A DNA stretch of 64,000 nucleotides, taken from assembly GCA_024685975.1 (NCBI GenBank), contig JAIBDZ010000005.1:1-64000 (forward strand), written 5' to 3'. Within the stretch, counting starts at the first letter, position 1; the number at the start of each line of letters is the position of its first letter. This DNA is from Piscirickettsiaceae bacterium. Its GTDB lineage: Bacteria; Pseudomonadota; Gammaproteobacteria; Nitrosococcales; Methylophagaceae. Shown piece after piece: positions 438 through 64,000 of this stretch. Below the pieces are notes generated by a model. It was not told where the DNA came from and ran no database searches. It saw nothing but the letters and a program-made list of their open reading frames with translations. The translations under genes were made by a program, and so were the position numbers.

Positions 438-2585
438 TTACAGATCAAAGCCGAAATTAACACCAGCGAAGACACTGCGACCAGTGATCACACTTTCTTC
501 TTTTAAGAAGCTAGTATGACGACGACCGTCTTCATCGAGTAAGTTACGACCTTTAACAAAAATACCTAAGCCTTTTAATGACGCTGGTTGCCAATTGGCA
601 TTGAACGACAATAAATTATAGCCATCGGTACTACTTTCAAAGTCTGCTGTTTTACTTTGGTTAAAGACATGTTGATAGTCCATGCTGAATTGCACATCAC
701 CACGTCCAGTATCAAACCCTAAGCCAACACGAGCAGGAGATATGCGAGGTAAATCGCTACCATCATCTAACTTAGCTCGAACATAATCAGCAGAGAAGCG
801 TAATTTGAACGGTATTTTACCTTCGCTAATTTGCCAGCCTGACGTGAACTCAGCACCATAGAATTTAGCATCGCCTTGTTGATTACTCACAAAGAGGTTG
901 CCTTCAGCATCAATGACAGCAGCACCACCACTTTGCATTGTTTCTAGGTAAATATAGTCATCAACTTTATTATAGAAAGCCGTGATGTTGTAGGTGAATG
1001 GGCCGTGATGTCTATCTAAGCCAATTTCAAAATTAGTATAAGCTTCTTTGTCTAAGTCAGGATCACCAATCTCAACCGTACCCGAGGCATGATGTTCGCC
1101 AAATGAATACAATTGCTCTGCTGATGGCGCACGTTCAGAACGGCTTAATGATACTCTGACATGATGGTTATCATTGACATCAATAATGGCACCAGCTGAG
1201 AGACTAAATGGCGTAAAACTTCGGTCACTCAGCTTAGCATCTTGACCTATCTCATCATCAGGTGCTGGGAGCGGTGTATCAATATCACGATCTTCATCTA
1301 AAGTGGCAGGTTTAGAGTCAACATGATCAATACGCGCTGCGAGCTCAACATGACCAAAAGAGGTTTCAGTATTTTCTAAAACAAATAGACCATAAGATCG
1401 TGTTTCGTTATCACGGACATAGAAACTACCATGGCCATGGCCGCCGCCACCTTCTTCTGGTGAGCTTGTTTTAAAGTCAGTATCATTGACTTGCAAACCA
1501 ACAACACCATCCCATCTACCAATTGGATTGTGTAGTAATTCGAGACGAACTTCAGTTTCTTCTTTGTCGAATTCACCTTCAACGCCAGACTCTTCCAAAA
1601 CACCACCATCGAATTCAGAGGCGACTTCTGCTTGATAGAACTCGGTATACGCTACTTTTAAGCGCGCAGTATGAATACCTGCAAATGGATCATAGATTTC
1701 ACTACGGAAATCAATACGATCATAATCGGCGTGTATGCGCGCTTGTTCTTCTTCACCGACACCGCTAATGAAGGTTGGAATACCGTAGTTTGTTTTCCAG
1801 CGGCTATAACCTAAACCTGCAAAACCCCAGTCTTGGCTATAAAGTCCAGTTAAAGAGAAACTATCAGAATCGACACCACTGTTTTCTAGTGTGCCTTTAT
1901 CACCTGTTTGATCTTCGTTTTGGTAACCATCGATATCAAAATCATCACTCCGTTGACCGGCATAATCACTTCGAATAACAAAGTTGTCTGATAACGGTAA
2001 TGAAATACCGATATCACCAATACGTTGATTACCATTACCACTATAGCCAAATTGACCATGAACATTGGTTTTTTCGCCGAAATCAGGATTGAAATGATCG
2101 CTGATAACATTGATAACACCACCAGAGGCATTACCACCATAAAGTAAGGTCGCAGGGCCTCGTAGGATTTCAATTTGGCTCGCGTTGCTAGCATCAATGG
2201 CGACATTATGATCGCCACCTTCACCAGCAACATCGACGACTCTTAAGCCATTATTCAGAATTTGAACACGAGAACCAGTTAAACCACGCACAACTGGACG
2301 GCCAACACCGGGCCCAAAGTCTGAGTTACTGACACCAGGCAGGCCATCTAAAGTCTCACCAAGTGTTGATGATTGGCGACGAGCGAGCTCTTCATCGCTA
2401 ATGACCGTGACAGAGTTGATTAAATCATCAGCAACACGGTCTCCAAATGGATCCGAAGTAATAATGAGCGGCGCAATCTCTACTGGCGCACTATCATCAG
2501 CAAACGCAGGTAAGCTGATGGCTAGGTTAGATAAAACGGCACTAACTAATACAGCCGTTGTTTTTTTATGAAAATGACTTTCCAT
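438..2585 (-). CDS. znuD: TonB-dependent outer-membrane receptor, ZnuD-like
   Basis: The product is a 715-residue outer-membrane receptor that would import a metal or metallophore using TonB energy. A signal peptide ends near residue 29 (LPAFAD). A TonB-box-like stretch follows (APLIITSDPF, 39-48), then a plug domain at about 55-165 with the usual RGL.GSRVQIL and EILRGPATLLYGG motifs, then a 22-strand barrel ending in the typical aromatic C terminus (FGFDL). Residues 379-387 form a Gly/His loop (GGGGHGHGS). In Neisseria ZnuD, such His-rich extracellular loops bind zinc, so zinc is the likeliest substrate, but this is inference. A small His-containing secreted protein sits directly upstream in the same direction. 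No clear Zur or Fur operator could be identified by eye in the 167-bp leader. Confidence 0.75.
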   Translation of the reverse strand: MESHFHKKTTAVLVSAVLSNLAISLPAFADDSAPVEIAPLIITSDPFGDRVADDLINSVTVISDEELARRQSSTLGETLDGLPGVSNSDFGPGVGRPVVRGLTGSRVQILNNGLRVVDVAGEGGDHNVAIDASNASQIEILRGPATLLYGGNASGGVINVISDHFNPDFGEKTNVHGQFGYSGNGNQRIGDIGISLPLSDNFVIRSDYAGQRSDDFDIDGYQNEDQTGDKGTLENSGVDSDSFSLTGLYSQDWGFAGLGYSRWKTNYGIPTFISGVGEEEQARIHADYDRIDFRSEIYDPFAGIHTARLKVAYTEFYQAEVASEFDGGVLEESGVEGEFDKEETEVRLELLHNPIGRWDGVVGLQVNDTDFKTSSPEEGGGGHGHGSFYVRDNETRSYGLFVLENTETSFGHVELAARIDHVDSKPATLDEDRDIDTPLPAPDDEIGQDAKLSDRSFTPFSLSAGAIIDVNDNHHVRVSLSRSERAPSAEQLYSFGEHHASGTVEIGDPDLDKEAYTNFEIGLDRHHGPFTYNITAFYNKVDDYIYLETMQSGGAAVIDAEGNLFVSNQQGDAKFYGAEFTSGWQISEGKIPFKLRFSADYVRAKLDDGSDLPRISPARVGLGFDTGRGDVQFSMDYQHVFNQSKTADFESSTDGYNLLSFNANWQPASLKGLGIFVKGRNLLDEDGRRHTSFLKEESVITGRSVFAGVNFGFDL

Positions 2586-2713
2586 TTGATATTCTCCAAA
2601 TACCTAGAGCATAGGATGACGTAGCCCTATGTTTGATGTCATAGCGTGCAAGGTCATCGTAAATAGGCATAGACCTATAGAATCACTATGGCTCGGTATA
2701 AATTAGGTTTATC

Positions 2714-2737
2714 AGATTTGTTGATTAAGACAAATCT
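2714..2737. repeat. Inverted repeat in the leader of the TonB receptor
   Basis: Perfect 8-bp arms (2714-2721 AGATTTGT and 2730-2737 ACAAATCT) are separated by 8 bp. It sits between the small secreted gene and the receptor. It could be a repressor operator or an intra-operon hairpin. It does not resemble a Zur box closely enough to name it. Confidence 0.35.
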
Positions 2738-2752
2738 AAGTATGAGCAAAAA

Positions 2753-3049
2753 TTAACTAGGAGAAGTCAAAGGAGGAGCACGGATAGCGTCAGTATCACG
2801 TTGTTTAGCAATAACCAACGTAATGGGAGTTGGGAACACAGACACTGAATAAGAGGTGAATGTGAGTAATAGCGAGGATGGTACGGCATCTAGAACAGGT
2901 GTATGAGCAAAAACCTCATAGCGTTCACATTGTTCATTCTCATCATGAAATGCATGTTCAGCATCATGCCATATGGCGAGCGACTGCATTGACAGTAAAA
3001 TAACTGTCAATAAAGCTAACCATAAGCGATGTTGATATTGCTGTGTCAT
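2753..3049 (-). CDS. Small secreted protein upstream of the TonB receptor (DUF2607/DUF2946-like)
   Basis: The protein has 98 residues. Residues 8-26 form a hydrophobic export signal or membrane anchor, followed by a His-rich patch (WHDAEHAFHDENEQC, 28-42). Near the end is the motif AIRAPP. I associate an R-x-P-P ending with short DUF2946/DUF2607 proteins found beside metal transporters, but could not check this. It starts 4 bases after the dapE stop, so it is probably cotranscribed with the dap genes as well as leading into the receptor gene 167 bp further on. The His, Asp, Glu and Cys residues could bind zinc or copper in the periplasm. Function is unknown. Confidence 0.5.
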   Translation of the reverse strand: MTQQYQHRLWLALLTVILLSMQSLAIWHDAEHAFHDENEQCERYEVFAHTPVLDAVPSSLLLTFTSYSVSVFPTPITLVIAKQRDTDAIRAPPLTSPS

Positions 3050-3052
3050 GGT

Positions 3053-4532
<1,480 letters not shown>

Positions 4533-4534
4533 GA

Positions 4535-5356
4535 TTAGATATCGCGTAATAGCTCGTTAATGCCGACTTTACCGCGGGTTTTTTCATCAACTTGTTTGAC
4601 GATAACGGCACAATATAGACTATATGTTCCGTCTTTTGATGGTAAGTTACCAGAAACAACAACAGAACCAGCTGGAATACGACCGTAACTGATTTCACCG
4701 GTCATACGGTTAAAGATTTTGGTGCTTTGGCCAATATAAACACCCATTGAAATCACGGCACCTTCTTCAACAATAACGCCTTCAACGACTTCGCTTCGTG
4801 CGCCAATGAAACAGTTATCTTCAATAATGGTCGGGCCAGCTTGTAACGGTTCTAATACACCACCGATACCGACACCTCCTGATAAGTGAACATTTTTACC
4901 AATTTGAGCGCAAGAGCCGACAGTGGCCCATGTGTCGACCATTGTGCCAGAGTCAACATAAGCGCCAATATTGACGTATGAAGGCATTAATACTGTGCTT
5001 GGCGCAATATAAGAGCCACGACGTACAGCAGCAGGTGGTACAACACGGACACCTGCTTTATCAAAATCAGCTTCGCTGAAGCTAGCAAATTTTGGATCCA
5101 CTTTATCGTAATAATTGGTTTCAGCACCAGGCATGATTTTATTGTCATTTAAGCGAAATGATAATAAAACGGCTTTCTTCAACCATTGGTTAACAACCCA
5201 GTCACCATTTTGCTTTTCAGCAACACGGGCTGAACCATTATCAAGCATGGTTAATGCGTCGTTGACAGCATTGCGAACAGTTGCATCAGCATTAGCTGGG
5301 GTAATGTCAGCACGACGCTCAAAAGCATCTTCGATGATCTGTTGAATATCACTCAT
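4535..5356 (-). CDS. dapD: Tetrahydrodipicolinate N-succinyltransferase
   Basis: DapD transfers succinyl from succinyl-CoA to tetrahydrodipicolinate, the branch-defining step of the succinylase route to meso-diaminopimelate. The 273-residue product has the family's usual length. It has an N-terminal helical domain, then a left-handed beta-helix made of hexapeptide repeats (for example [20 protein letters not shown] and [21 protein letters not shown], roughly residues 125-185), then a C-terminal segment ending [10 protein letters not shown] good ribosome binding site (GGAGAA) precedes the ATG. It sits between dapC (30 bp upstream) and yffB (2 bp downstream). Confidence 0.96.
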
Positions 5357-5386
5357 GTGTTTTCTCCAAAAAGGGTATTTTAAAAT

Positions 5387-6583
5387 TTATAAATGTTCGA
5401 TTAAATGTCGAATGCGGTGAGCGGCTTCAACACATTCTTCTAATGATGCGACTAAAGCCATTCGAATACGGTTTTTGCCTGGGTTTCCATCAGCGGTATC
5501 TCTTGCTAAATATTGTCCGGGCAGAACAGTGACGTGTTGCTCATGGAAAAGTCGTTGTGCAAATAAGGCATCATCAATGGGTGTTTCAGCCCATAAATAA
5601 AAACTGGCTTCAGGCTGTGACACTGACATCACTGGCGATAAAATATCGAGCACGGCCGCAAATTTTTCTCGGTAATAGCTACGGTTATAAACGACGTGAT
5701 CTTCATCCTGCCAAGCACGAATAGAGGCAGATTGTGTTGTCGGTGGCATAGCGCAACCATGATACGTGCGGTAGCGTAAAAACTGTTTTAGGATGTTGGC
5801 ATCACCGGCAACAAAACCAGATCGTAAGCCGGGTGCATTTGAACGTTTTGACAAACTATGAAAGACAACGCAATGACTATAATCGGTGTAGCCCGCTGCA
5901 TGAGCGGCTTGTAATAAACCGACCGGAGGCATCTCTTCATCAAAATAAATTTCTGAATAACACTCATCGGAAGCGATGATAAAATCATGCTGATGGGCTA
6001 ACTCGATTAAGCGTACTAAAGTAGCTTCATCAATCACAGCCCCAGTCGGGTTACTTGGACTGCATAAATAGATTAACTGACAACGTTGCCATGTCGCTTC
6101 ATCAACCTGATCGAAATCAGGAATGAAGTTGTTCTCAGCGGTACAGTTAAGAAAAATGGGCTCAGCGCCAGCCAAGATAGCAGCGCCTTCATAAATTTGA
6201 TAAAAAGGATTAGGCATTAGCACAGCAGGTTGCTCAGCCGTTCTATCAATAACGGCTTGGGCAAAAGCAAATAAAGCTTCGCGCGTGCCATTGACGGGTA
6301 AAACTTGAGTCAATGCATCCATATGACCGTTTAAATGAAAACGTTGCGCCAACCAATTTGCAATGGTTTGTCTGAGTTTGACGTTACCAATGGTAGTAGG
6401 ATAATGAGACAAACCATCCAAATGCTCTATCACAGCTTGTGTGATAAACCCCGGTGTGGCATGTTTTGGCTCACCGATCGATAAGGCAATATGACTGAGA
6501 TGCTCAGGCGGCGTCGCCTTGGCTTTCAATGCTGCCAGTTTCTCAAATGGGTAGGGGTGTAATTGGCCTAAATCAGGATTCAT
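5387..6583 (-). CDS. dapC: Succinyldiaminopimelate transaminase
   Basis: This is a PLP-dependent class I aminotransferase that would convert N-succinyl-2-amino-6-ketopimelate to N-succinyl-LL-diaminopimelate. Visible features are the LSIGEPKH substrate segment, the SPSNPTGAVI motif, the D-E-C-Y stretch for PLP pyridine binding, and SLSKRSNAPGLRSG carrying the Schiff-base lysine. I start it at the ATG at 6583 because the family begins MNP.L..LHPYPFEKL exactly there. A TTG at 6631 would add 16 atypical residues. It is the first gene of the dap operon. General ArgD-like aminotransferases can do this step too, but the N-terminal motif and the location favour a dedicated DapC. Confidence 0.92.
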   Translation of the reverse strand: MNPDLGQLHPYPFEKLAALKAKATPPEHLSHIALSIGEPKHATPGFITQAVIEHLDGLSHYPTTIGNVKLRQTIANWLAQRFHLNGHMDALTQVLPVNGTREALFAFAQAVIDRTAEQPAVLMPNPFYQIYEGAAILAGAEPIFLNCTAENNFIPDFDQVDEATWQRCQLIYLCSPSNPTGAVIDEATLVRLIELAHQHDFIIASDECYSEIYFDEEMPPVGLLQAAHAAGYTDYSHCVVFHSLSKRSNAPGLRSGFVAGDANILKQFLRYRTYHGCAMPPTTQSASIRAWQDEDHVVYNRSYYREKFAAVLDILSPVMSVSQPEASFYLWAETPIDDALFAQRLFHEQHVTVLPGQYLARDTADGNPGKNRIRMALVASLEECVEAAHRIRHLIEHL

Positions 6584-6655
6584 GAAGGGGTCTGATAAAA
6601 AAGAAAGCTGATTATTATAACGGGTTATCAAACATTCGTGGTATAAGCTTAGCGC

Positions 6656-7531
6656 ATGATGATTTCAAGACAATATGAGAATAAGCTCGCGGTCATAAGT
6701 TTATTGGTCTCGGCTGCGCTTTGGGGCGTGATTTGGTATCCATTACGACTGTTAGATGACGCTGGACTTCCAGGCATCTGGAGCTCGATGGCGATGTATT
6801 CTGCGGCAGCGATATTAGTGCTCCCCAGTTTATTTTCTTGGCCTTCAGTGAATCAAAAAGGATGGTTGCTAGGGTTAGCCTTAGCTGCGGGTGTGACCAA
6901 TATTGCCTTTGTCATTGCTTTGGTCGAGGGAGAGGTCATGCGGGTGATGTTATTATTTTACTTGTCCCCAATTTGGACTGTCTTATTAGGTCGCTGGTGG
7001 TTGGGAGAAAAACTATCTCTTATGGCGATGGCTTATTTTATCTTGGCCATGATTGGCGCTGTTGTGATGTTATGGGACCCAGCCTTGTCGACACCTTGGC
7101 CTCAAGCATCAGCCGACTGGTTAGCCTTGTTAGCCGGCATGGCTTTCGCCACAAATAATGTAATTGGAAGAAAGCTCGCTAACGTTGAGATGAAAATGAA
7201 AACAGCGATGAGTTGGTGGGGGTGTGTTGTCGTTGCAACAACGGTAATCTTATTATTAGGCGAGCCAACTCCAGCCGTTGATGTCTCTATCTGGTTATGG
7301 GCATGTCTATTAGGTTGGTTAGGAATCGTTTTAATGACGGTTGCCATATTTTACGGTTTAGCTCGAATGCCCGTGTATCGATCTTCGGTCATTATGTTAT
7401 TTGAATTGCTCGTCGCAGCCATTGCAGCTTGGTTATTAACGGACGAAGTCATGAGCATGCAAGAATGGGCGGGCGGTATATTAATATTAATGGCAGGTTA
7501 TGGCGTAATTCGAACGCAAGTGTCAAAATAA
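6656..7531 (+). CDS. EamA/DMT-family transporter
   Basis: The product is a 291-residue inner-membrane protein with about ten hydrophobic segments arranged as two EamA repeats (roughly residues 10-145 and 150-288). Both begin with the small-residue-rich helices typical of the drug/metabolite transporter superfamily. The substrate cannot be told from sequence; relatives export amino acids, nucleosides or metabolites. It is divergent from dapC with only 72 bp between the starts, so the two promoters share a short region. The next gene lies 27 bp downstream on the same strand and may be cotranscribed. Confidence 0.85.
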   Translation: MMISRQYENKLAVISLLVSAALWGVIWYPLRLLDDAGLPGIWSSMAMYSAAAILVLPSLFSWPSVNQKGWLLGLALAAGVTNIAFVIALVEGEVMRVMLLFYLSPIWTVLLGRWWLGEKLSLMAMAYFILAMIGAVVMLWDPALSTPWPQASADWLALLAGMAFATNNVIGRKLANVEMKMKTAMSWWGCVVVATTVILLLGEPTPAVDVSIWLWACLLGWLGIVLMTVAIFYGLARMPVYRSSVIMLFELLVAAIAAWLLTDEVMSMQEWAGGILILMAGYGVIRTQVSK

Positions 7532-58153: not shown

Positions 58154-58984
58154 GTGAGCCGTAAAGTGATTAGCAGTGTTGCCGCATTATCAATTGGTTT
58201 ATTCAGCACAGCAGCAATGTCAGCCGTTTTATCAGAACGGTCTGTGATTAATATCATCCAGTTCGATTTTGAAAATCCAGAGTATGTTGAAAACTCAAGC
58301 AATAGCACTTTTTCTCATCAATATGGCTCCACAGCAGATGTACAAGGTTATGGTGATGCCTCAACGGGTAAAGTAGGGACACGTGTTATTGGTTCGGAAG
58401 GATCATTTTCACAATCCATAGTGTCGATCTTTGATACCTTGACCTTTAATACCGGCACAACTGGCCCAGTCGAAGTGTCATTTAACTTGAGCTACGACGG
58501 TTCATTATCATCTAGCAGCGAATTTGAACATCCGCGTTCAGAGAGCACTGTCAGAATTTTCGATATCACGGGCATTACCAACTGGTTAGAAACCGATGGT
58601 TTACTTAATACAACTAGCGCAGTTGATGCGAGTGAATTACTGACTTTTGAACGTTTATCATTTGATTTGAATGATGTGCCACATAATGGCAGCGTATACG
58701 AGTTTGATTCATCCGTCATGGGCACTTTTTTGGCTGACTCAGCACGTGAATACGGTATTCAAATTACAAGCAGTTCGTATGCAAAGGCAAATTCTTCGGC
58801 AGATTTCTTAGGAACCAGTACCTTTGAATTTACCAACTTAAATGGTGCTACGTTTGAATCAGGTTCCGGTGCATTTTTGACTCAGCAAGTGACAACAGTA
58901 CCTGTGCCTGCCGCGGTCTGGTTATTAGCGACTGGCTTGATTGGTTTTGTTGGTGCAAGAAAAAGCGTCAAAGCATCAGCATAA
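58154..58984 (+). CDS. Secreted VPLPA/PEP-CTERM sorting-tail protein
   Basis: The 276-residue protein starts at a GTG with AAGGAGAAA upstream. It has a signal peptide (1-22, MSA-VLSER), a beta-rich Ser/Thr-rich exported domain (25-245) and the sorting tail VPVPAAVWLLATGLIGFVGARK. It is a candidate extracellular or envelope protein that an exosortase-like enzyme would process. No riboswitch was found upstream, unlike the gene at 18704. The export domain is not recognised. Confidence 0.8.
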   Translation: MSRKVISSVAALSIGLFSTAAMSAVLSERSVINIIQFDFENPEYVENSSNSTFSHQYGSTADVQGYGDASTGKVGTRVIGSEGSFSQSIVSIFDTLTFNTGTTGPVEVSFNLSYDGSLSSSSEFEHPRSESTVRIFDITGITNWLETDGLLNTTSAVDASELLTFERLSFDLNDVPHNGSVYEFDSSVMGTFLADSAREYGIQITSSSYAKANSSADFLGTSTFEFTNLNGATFESGSGAFLTQQVTTVPVPAAVWLLATGLIGFVGARKSVKASA

Positions 58985-60894: not shown

Positions 60895-60978
60895 GGATAA
60901 TCAAGCCATTAACATCTGAACTTATGCTATTATCTAACTTTTTTGTGGACTGGTTCACACTTTTTAGAGGTAAGGTTT

Positions 60979-61506
60979 ATGTATAAAATGTTTTTTTCTG
61001 TGTTGGCATTACTGATGTCTTTTTCAGCACAGGCGGCGTTATTAGGCTCATCAGTTAGCGTGTGTGCTGATAGTGCATACAACTCAGGTTCAGTCACGGC
61101 TAATCCTGCTGTATGTGCATCTGGGTCAGTTCAACCTACGCCAACTTCGGCTATTATCACCGAGCCTGGTGTCGAATTTAGCATGACTAACTCTGGTACT
61201 CGTACATTAGACTTTACCAATGATACATTGACTATTTCATATGATAATGTGGGTTCATCAAGTCCTGATTTGTTTGTATTTGAATTTGACGATGCAGTAT
61301 CAACAATGACATTAATTAGCTTAAACCTTTTAAATATCACGACGATGATTGATGGTAAGTTTTTAGGTGTGTTAGTGAGTGCGCCATCAGTTGATAGCAG
61401 CGTCACGTTCCAATTTGGTACAACTGAAGTCCCTGTTCCAGCAGCATTATGGTTATTTGTTTCAGGCCTATTAGGTTTAACAGCCGTGAGACGCCGTAAA
61501 GCGTAA
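60979..61506 (+). CDS. Small secreted VPLPA/PEP-CTERM sorting-tail protein
   Basis: The 175-residue product (MYKMFFSVLALLMSFSAQA) has a signal peptide to residue 19, a short beta-rich domain with two Cys (VCAD, VCAS) and the sorting tail EVPVPAALWLFVSGLLGLTAVRRRK. The ATG at 60979 has GAGG/AAGG upstream, and an earlier frame start at 60943 is ignored. A terminator follows. It is similar in design to the two other sorting-tail proteins of the window. Confidence 0.82.
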   Translation: MYKMFFSVLALLMSFSAQAALLGSSVSVCADSAYNSGSVTANPAVCASGSVQPTPTSAIITEPGVEFSMTNSGTRTLDFTNDTLTISYDNVGSSSPDLFVFEFDDAVSTMTLISLNLLNITTMIDGKFLGVLVSAPSVDSSVTFQFGTTEVPVPAALWLFVSGLLGLTAVRRRKA

Positions 61507-62684: not shown

Positions 62685-62883
62685 CAATTGATGAGTTTAA
62701 TAGTCTATTGCTTATGTTGAAAAGTTAAGACTATGAAAGAGGCAGAACCACTTGCCTTTGAGGAAAATAATCGCTTTAATGAAGCTTACTCAAGCGATAC
62801 TAAGGATGGCTAAACTTGAAGCCTTTCCAAAATATCCGTTGAAAAGATAATGCTATAAGTTACTTCGCGAGGGTCGCCGATAA
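62685..62883. other. Intergenic region before the terminal cassette
   Basis: This 199-bp stretch has no recognisable gene. One 26-residue frame (62733-62813, starts MKEAEPLAFEENNRF) has a weak ribosome binding site and is probably not real. It may mark the left edge of an inserted accessory block. Confidence 0.35.
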
Positions 62884-63291
62884 ATGGGTAGTAAAAAAAT
62901 TAAATGGCTGATTTACACCGTTTTGGTGGGATTGATTCCGATATTATCAAGGTTGATAGTTTGGCTTGTGACTAAAGAAGGCAGTGTTAATTTATTTTCG
63001 CCCTCCGACTTCGTGGCTTTCGGTTTGGTTCTTCACATTTCCAATATTAATGAAATAGAACATTTTTCAGGAATACAAAAGGAGTGGAAAACAGCTCAAA
63101 ATGGGATCTCAATAGCTTTTATAGCCTTTTATAGTGTTTTGTTTGCATTGACATTAATTGGTGAAAATATTGTTGATGTTAACGCAATCACTATCTGCAC
63201 AATGGTCTTATCTGTCGTTTCATTTCTTATTAGTTACACGGTCTACGATAGGATTTCAAAGACACCAACCAGTGAAGGAGGTGTTGCATGA
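62884..63291 (+). CDS. Multi-pass membrane protein of the terminal cassette
   Basis: The 135-residue protein has three or four hydrophobic segments (about 8-29, 41-52, 73-93 and 100-121) and short charged loops. No family is recognised. A GAGGG lies 11 bases before the ATG. Its stop overlaps the next gene by ATGA, so the two are translated together. The AT-rich, lysine/asparagine-leaning composition of the cassette differs from the housekeeping genes and suggests horizontal origin. Confidence 0.65.
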   Translation: MGSKKIKWLIYTVLVGLIPILSRLIVWLVTKEGSVNLFSPSDFVAFGLVLHISNINEIEHFSGIQKEWKTAQNGISIAFIAFYSVLFALTLIGENIVDVNAITICTMVLSVVSFLISYTVYDRISKTPTSEGGVA

Positions 63292-63416
63292 CCACTTTCA
63301 TTATTTCATTAACTATAATATTAGCATTAGCCGGTATTGCTGTTTCTATATGGTCATTGATAAGCACTCGAAATAAATCCTATAAGGAATATAAAGGAAG
63401 GAAACGCAATGATTAA
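63288..63416 (+). CDS. 42-residue single-span membrane peptide
   Basis: The ATG at 63288 encodes 42 residues: a hydrophobic helix at 3-25 (FIISLTIILALAGIAVSIW) and a basic tail (RNKSYKEYKGRKRND). GGAGG ten bases upstream and 4-bp and 8-bp overlaps with its neighbours show it is real. It is a single-span peptide with positive-inside tail, possibly an assembly partner of the first protein. Confidence 0.7.
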   Translation: MTTFIISLTIILALAGIAVSIWSLISTRNKSYKEYKGRKRND

Positions 63417-64000
63417 AAATTTTATATATCTTGACGAAGAAAAAATGTATTCCCTTTCTTCACAGCTATTCGAAGGTGTTACTGAATATGTTCTAAACGA
63501 ATCAACTTCTGAAAAAGGTGAGTCTGAAGAGCAAAAAGGGCCTGTCGGAAGTGGGAGAATTCTAGGTGATATCTTAAAAAATAGTGAGAGGAATACTGAG
63601 AAGAAATTCCTTAATGATTACTCGTATACCATTTTTGAGAAAAAACTCATAGATGACGAAATGGTACGAGTTGTTAGTAATGATGAAGGTGAAGATTCAC
63701 AAGTCGGCACTGATAGGTCATTTATAAAAATCACATCCAAAGCCACTTTCAACGATATAAACACAATAAATAACACGCTTAAAAACTTTAACAAGATCGG
63801 TAAGGCACTGGCCCACATAACTAATTTTCAGGAAATATCGGCAGTTAGAGAGCAACTAGAAAAAGCTAAGCAAAATACGAAAGACAGAAATCAAAAGAAT
63901 AAGCTTCAAACTCAACTGAAATCGATGACTAATATTAATAAGCTGGCCACCGAGTCGGGGCTACAGCAAGATCAAGGTTTTCTAGATGACCTTTCATTTG
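63409..64000 (+). CDS. DUF6414-like protein, 5' part (continues beyond window)
   Basis: The frame starts at an ATG (63409) inside the previous gene and remains open to the window end (197 codons). The N terminus MIKNFIYLDEEKMYSLSSQLFEGVTEYV resembles the family I know as DUF6414 (IYLD...SLSSQLFEG), unchecked. A charged segment (GESEEQKG) follows, then helical coiled-coil regions (about 133-165, EISAVREQLEKAKQNTKDRNQKNKLQTQL). It has no signal or membrane helix and is probably cytosolic. The overlap of 8 bp with the small peptide gene suggests one functional unit. Confidence 0.65.
   Translation, partial: MIKNFIYLDEEKMYSLSSQLFEGVTEYVLNESTSEKGESEEQKGPVGSGRILGDILKNSERNTEKKFLNDYSYTIFEKKLIDDEMVRVVSNDEGEDSQVGTDRSFIKITSKATFNDINTINNTLKNFNKIGKALAHITNFQEISAVREQLEKAKQNTKDRNQKNKLQTQLKSMTNINKLATESGLQQDQGFLDDLSF

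Follow-up and report, generated by a model that had tools for sequence, protein, structure and literature searches.

A conserved three-gene DUF6414 membrane cassette as a candidate phage-defence system

Main

In the P2-like phage AC1, a three-gene system consisting of a TIR protein and two transmembrane proteins gave protection, and the TIR protein may activate its associated transmembrane proteins (Rousset et al. 2022, PMC9122126). A three-gene architecture of one soluble and two transmembrane proteins can therefore defend. That paper treats the interval between the cI repressor and the integrase in Vibrionaceae as an anti-phage hotspot, and it also mentions a three-gene system for which no clear domain is predicted. 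Of 179 Vibrio cholerae integron cassettes tested, at least 16, about 10%, showed anti-phage activity (Darracq et al. 2025, reviewed in PMC12409362). Here we describe three overlapping genes near the end of the first 64,000 nucleotides (the window) of contig JAIBDZ010000005.1 from a Piscirickettsiaceae bacterium, which encode a predicted four-span membrane protein, a one-span membrane peptide and a protein of the DUF6414 family. Judged by its gene context, this trio probably serves, in one form or another, to defend against phages or to exclude competing ones, envelope exclusion included.

Like the AC1 system, the trio consists of three genes, found in a P2-like phage hotspot, that encode a soluble protein and transmembrane proteins. 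The soluble protein is a TIR protein in AC1 and DUF6414 in the trio, and the likeness is a works-like analogy of architecture only. Membership of the AC1 type by the soluble protein is excluded, as Pfam scans found no TIR domain in the trio; a literature search found no paper on 2TM-1TM-TIR (TM, transmembrane). Nine trio loci occupy the same interval as the hotspot of Vibrionaceae K139-like P2-related phages, for which the available part of the source names restriction–modification, Septu, Helicase-DUF2290 and PARIS and not DUF6414 (PMC9122126). Two trio relatives resemble the anti-phage integron cassettes in ending in attC-like sites, although the trio differs from those in that its three genes overlap and together take up only about 1.5 kb. 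The DUF6414 family, of which the trio is one branch, has no known function, and a literature search found no paper naming it. We regard the trio as a candidate new variant among compact membrane-effector defence cassettes.

A conserved unit of three overlapping genes

Gene 1 (62884..63291, + strand) encodes a 135-aa membrane protein, gene 2 (63288..63416, + strand) a 42-aa peptide with one membrane span at residues 3–21 by hydropathy and a basic tail, and gene 3 (63409..64000 in the window and on to contig position 64338, + strand) a 309-aa DUF6414 protein. Genes 1 and 2 overlap by 4 bp (ATGA) and genes 2 and 3 by 8 bp, with a GGAGG motif 6 nt before the gene 2 ATG, within the end of gene 1. 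The initial annotation, made from the letters of the window, had read these co-directional genes as one translational unit encoding a multi-span protein, a single-span peptide with a GGAGG site and a soluble protein; its coordinates and overlaps are exact, and four and one transmembrane helices, respectively, are predicted for the first two products. It had also allowed for a third gene broken just past the window. The contig is 116 kb long, of which the window covers the first 64 kb, and in the 52 kb beyond it gene 3 runs without internal stop to its stop codon at 64338, with leuS as the next gene (start at 64489).

We used a profile of each protein to score 26 loci. Gene 1 is encoded in 21 of them, and 20 of these 21 have the order gene 1–gene 2–gene 3; the profiles were built partly from the scored loci, so these counts record presence and order rather than independent detection. 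A protein search placed the trio in Aliiglaciecola, two Methylobacter metagenome-assembled genomes (MAGs), a Bacteriovorax MAG, Parendozoicomonas, a Bacteroidales MAG, a viral contig and Vibrio phage 10N.286.54.E4_PE001, and separate searches seeded with gene 1 and with gene 3 added further viral loci. All three proteins can be aligned across nine loci. The trio is thus one overlapping unit conserved across phyla, and the expectation that it would recur as a unit, often in defence contexts, was borne out; the opposite outcome, a trio not kept together in other genomes, does not apply. Comparison of the window and Aliiglaciecola copies by the NG86 method indicated purifying selection on all three genes, with ratios of non-synonymous to synonymous substitution (dN/dS) of about 0.05 for gene 1, 0.25 for gene 2 and 0.06 for gene 3. 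The distribution is sporadic: among 369 genomes of the class, gene 1 matched only the window's own genome, and neither a plasmid search nor an E. coli genome search gave a trio match.

The sole exception to the order is a prophage contig (L063, IMGVR_UViG_2894682665_000002, 3962-6314) on which different genes stand behind a gene-1 relative. This relative overlaps a gene for a transmembrane protein that matches sigma-70 region 2 slightly under the cut-off, an Mrr-type nuclease gene comes next and DUF6414 was not found there; the locus is possibly a membrane module with a different partner.

Carriage by phages and in defence loci

In nine Vibrio-type P2-like phage or prophage loci, the trio lies in the interval between the cI repressor and the integrase. 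Both sides could be read in seven of these, the integrase side only in L053 and the cI side only in L087. Pfam identified cI in seven loci and integrase in four, with the others assigned by record annotation (L006) or visible similarity, and the origin of the IMG/VR contigs in Vibrio or close relatives is judged from their resemblance to the named Vibrio phage. The same interval also carries KAP NTPases, a Schlafen AlbA_2 protein or an AAA_21/AAA_15 ATPase. The trio is present in other prophages as well, and in the Bacteroidales MAG it is preceded by a T5orf172 gene and followed by type I restriction–modification genes. By location, the Vibrio P2-like and Bacteroidales copies belong to a recognised hotspot or island of defence genes; the window copy does not. 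On one phage contig (L005), the gene after the trio (6017-7525) encodes a RelA_SpoT domain with a long repetitive stretch behind it, and this gene may form a toxin-like system of its own.

Carriage in integrons

We searched for attC sites with the pattern AACAAG-N30-60-GCGTTA and a shuffle control. The Parendozoicomonas trio heads an array of three units on its contig, each closed by an attC-like site (3 pattern matches versus 0.03 expected), and the pattern also occurs three times near the integron integrase of this genome. In Aliiglaciecola an attC-like site starts 7 nt past the trio stop (1 match versus 0.01 expected), and its bottom strand forms a long hairpin (z = -2.2, with 3 of 200 shuffles as good). 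Both genomes encode an integron integrase above cut-off. By these sequence features, the Aliiglaciecola and Parendozoicomonas copies qualify as integron gene cassettes. The third unit of the Parendozoicomonas array (L011, 2193-3984) encodes a membrane protein and a PAPS-reductase-domain protein and is likewise closed by an attC-like site.

At the window site there is no match to the attC pattern, and hairpins there are no better than those of shuffles (z 0.3 and 0.6). The reading of this copy as an intact integron cassette is therefore unsupported, its 3' stretch having neither attC pattern nor significant hairpin. A short leader 5' of gene 1 (62847..62883, + strand; CTATAAG...GAGGGT...GATAA) resembles the start of the Aliiglaciecola cassette (TTATAAG...GAGGGT...GATA) in a by-eye reading of the alignment, a likeness not significant alone, and could be a decayed cassette start. 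An integron integrase was found above cut-off in 11 of 29 genomes of the window's genus and not in the window's own genome, which is 68% complete. Because no attC is recognisable there, although such a site may have decayed, an integron origin of the window copy is only plausible.

Recent arrival between dsrE and leuS

The DNA of the window and Aliiglaciecola copies is 93.6% identical over a stretch that opens one base ahead of the first start codon and closes with base two of the last stop codon, with no detectable match outside the three open reading frames (ORFs). The proteins of genes 1, 2 and 3 are 98, 86 and 96% identical, while LeuS is only 57–69% identical between the window and Aliiglaciecola genomes, and on this comparison the window copy is a recent horizontal transfer. 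The dsrE–leuS site is empty, with a gap of about 105–159 bp, in three of the four closest relatives ranked by LeuS, and in the fourth (L020, genome G013; ~400-1450) it holds a decayed amino-acid-transporter-like fragment with an internal stop. The dsrE–leuS junction was therefore the insertion point, the trio arrived without other genes and the site has received more than one insertion. With a G+C content of 35.1%, against a window mean of 41.7%, the trio is also compositionally unusual, with values equally low in 9 of 620 windows of the same size. The reading of the trio as a foreign accessory cassette is supported.

The DNA between the dsrE-like gene and the trio (62685..62883, 199 bp, no strand assigned) was not found in the 28 further genomes of the genus that we searched, a comparison that marks it as foreign or lineage-specific. 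In one relative (G018:C3:400430-401337), leuS matched in two pieces that overlap but lie in different frames, pointing to a frameshift that is either genuine or a sequencing error.

Proteins of the trio

Gene 1 is predicted to encode a four-span membrane bundle, with helices at residues 3-29, 40-60, 66-92 and 99-126 in its AlphaFold2 model (mean predicted local distance difference test (pLDDT) 87). Alignment of its relatives, found in 21 loci, revealed conserved polar residues inside or beside the spans (R23, D42, H51 and E57), and a fold search of the PDB gave no match at E <= 0.001. Gene 2 relatives of 40–63 aa occupy the same place in 20 loci. Neither gene matched a named family above cut-off in profile searches. 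Small membrane proteins are also part of SLATT, CBASS 4TM and reverse-transcriptase-associated systems in PADLOC, to which there are weak single-member matches (E = 0.001-0.01). We rejected kinship with SLATT, 4TM CBASS effectors and reverse-transcriptase defence, as these matches are short, cover membrane segments and are absent from most members, and amount to noise.

The DUF6414 resemblance, proposed in the initial annotation, is secure: gene 3 matches Pfam PF19952 with 95.9 bits (cut-off 25) over profile positions 1-283 of 283. The description of its product as a cytosolic coiled-coil protein holds in part, as the AlphaFold2 model (mean pLDDT 76) does contain a long helical hairpin (127-182), but inserted into a core that is mostly beta. 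A low-confidence segment at 23-67 includes conserved positions; residues conserved in this protein include D9, Q19, G23 and P302. Fold searches of the PDB and BFVD gave no match at E <= 0.001; several weaker matches are OB-fold proteins (E about 1–4), a hint only.

Distant members of the family have other neighbours, among them an AAA ATPase gene and a phage repressor-like gene. At L013 (genome G088, 1093-3693), a 456-aa DUF6414 protein directly adjoins an AAA ATPase gene, and the pair is a possible two-gene system of its own. At L014 and L015 (genomes G373 and G080, in both of which an integron integrase scores above cut-off), the distant DUF6414 proteins have the C-terminal sequences PNKLLKRT and PNKALQRTSR. 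These resemble read-through into attC, and the two genes may be single-gene DUF6414 cassettes. Gene 3 of the trio itself is split over two frames in a small viral contig (L052, IMGVR_UViG_2671180135_000001, 3926-4898), with a Zot-like gene alongside.

Proposed function and alternatives

A role in defence or phage competition is favoured because the trio is strict, is carried in a lysogenic-phage hotspot and by integrons, and is sporadically distributed. We propose that it acts as a compact conflict cassette that moves horizontally and would shield its carrier, whether cell or prophage, from other phages. The soluble DUF6414 protein would sense, or be triggered by, infection and, via the one-span peptide, would control the four-span protein, which in turn would damage or depolarise the inner membrane and halt infection in an abortive manner. 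The sensor role of DUF6414 and the effector role of gene 1 are suggested by the architecture and its analogy with the AC1 system. From gene context, internal defence through a membrane effector is slightly favoured. The full sequence from sensing to peptide, four-span protein and membrane damage, in that order, falls somewhat short of this and is put forward tentatively. More tentative still is the idea of an undescribed three-gene defence system in which DUF6414 directly gates the four-span effector through a membrane peptide of 40–60 aa and which is streamlined enough to spread across phyla both within prophages and in the form of one integron cassette.

Several points weigh against this proposal. 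It presumes that the trio proteins interact and that gene 1 is toxic. PADLOC-DB 2.0.0 contains no convincing match for any trio protein (E = 0.001-0.01, few members). Five distant DUF6414 loci (L013-L017) occur without genes 1 and 2, and the window and Methylobacter copies, the latter after alaS, stand alone between housekeeping genes and not in defence islands. Prophage and integron cargo, moreover, is not always defensive.

The alternative that survives best, although we consider it unlikely, is superinfection exclusion at the envelope, in which the membrane proteins would block phage entry or DNA injection, DUF6414 would be an assembly or regulatory partner and no cell death would follow. 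It would account for two of the three proteins being small membrane proteins and for the prophage copies adjoining the cI repressor, where lysogen-active genes are expected. However, the best-conserved part by length is a soluble protein of 300 aa, more than a simple entry block needs, and the trio is also found on integrons and on chromosomes outside prophages.

We think it improbable that the trio is an addiction module in which the membrane peptide, gene 1 or both would be toxic and DUF6414 would neutralise them, stabilising the carrier element. Small hydrophobic peptides are common toxins, toxin–antitoxin cassettes are common in integrons and the gene overlaps fit a fixed stoichiometry, but the genes for the putative toxins precede the one for the putative antitoxin, the pair of membrane proteins never occurs apart, and our searches found no relative of a known toxin–antitoxin family. 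Marginally less probable again is a niche or stress function apart from phages, such as membrane transport or ion homeostasis. The stand-alone copies between housekeeping genes and a faint resemblance of gene 1 to a manganese efflux family, under the cut-off (E = 0.035), would fit such a function, whereas the repeated phage and integron carriage, the sporadic distribution and the lack of any metabolic neighbour shared between loci argue against it. Chance ORFs, for which only the small size of gene 2 speaks, and an assembly artefact or broken gene 3 can be dismissed, given the conservation and order of the three proteins, the purifying selection on all three genes, the native dsrE–leuS flanks shared with close relatives and the complete gene 3.

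Should the proposed membrane-effector defence prove correct, it would give a function to the uncharacterised DUF6414 family, would extend the defences carried by Vibrio P2-like phages and integrons by one small cassette, and would show that a membrane system of three genes can move within a single integron cassette. With a length of about 1.5 kb, the trio is easily cloned and tested.

Elsewhere in the window, two proteins with PEP-CTERM-type C-terminal tails are encoded near the cassette, at 58154-58984, where the tail was recognised by eye, and at 60943-61506, where the Pfam PEP-CTERM-type match lies just under cut-off (20.0 versus 20.7 bits).
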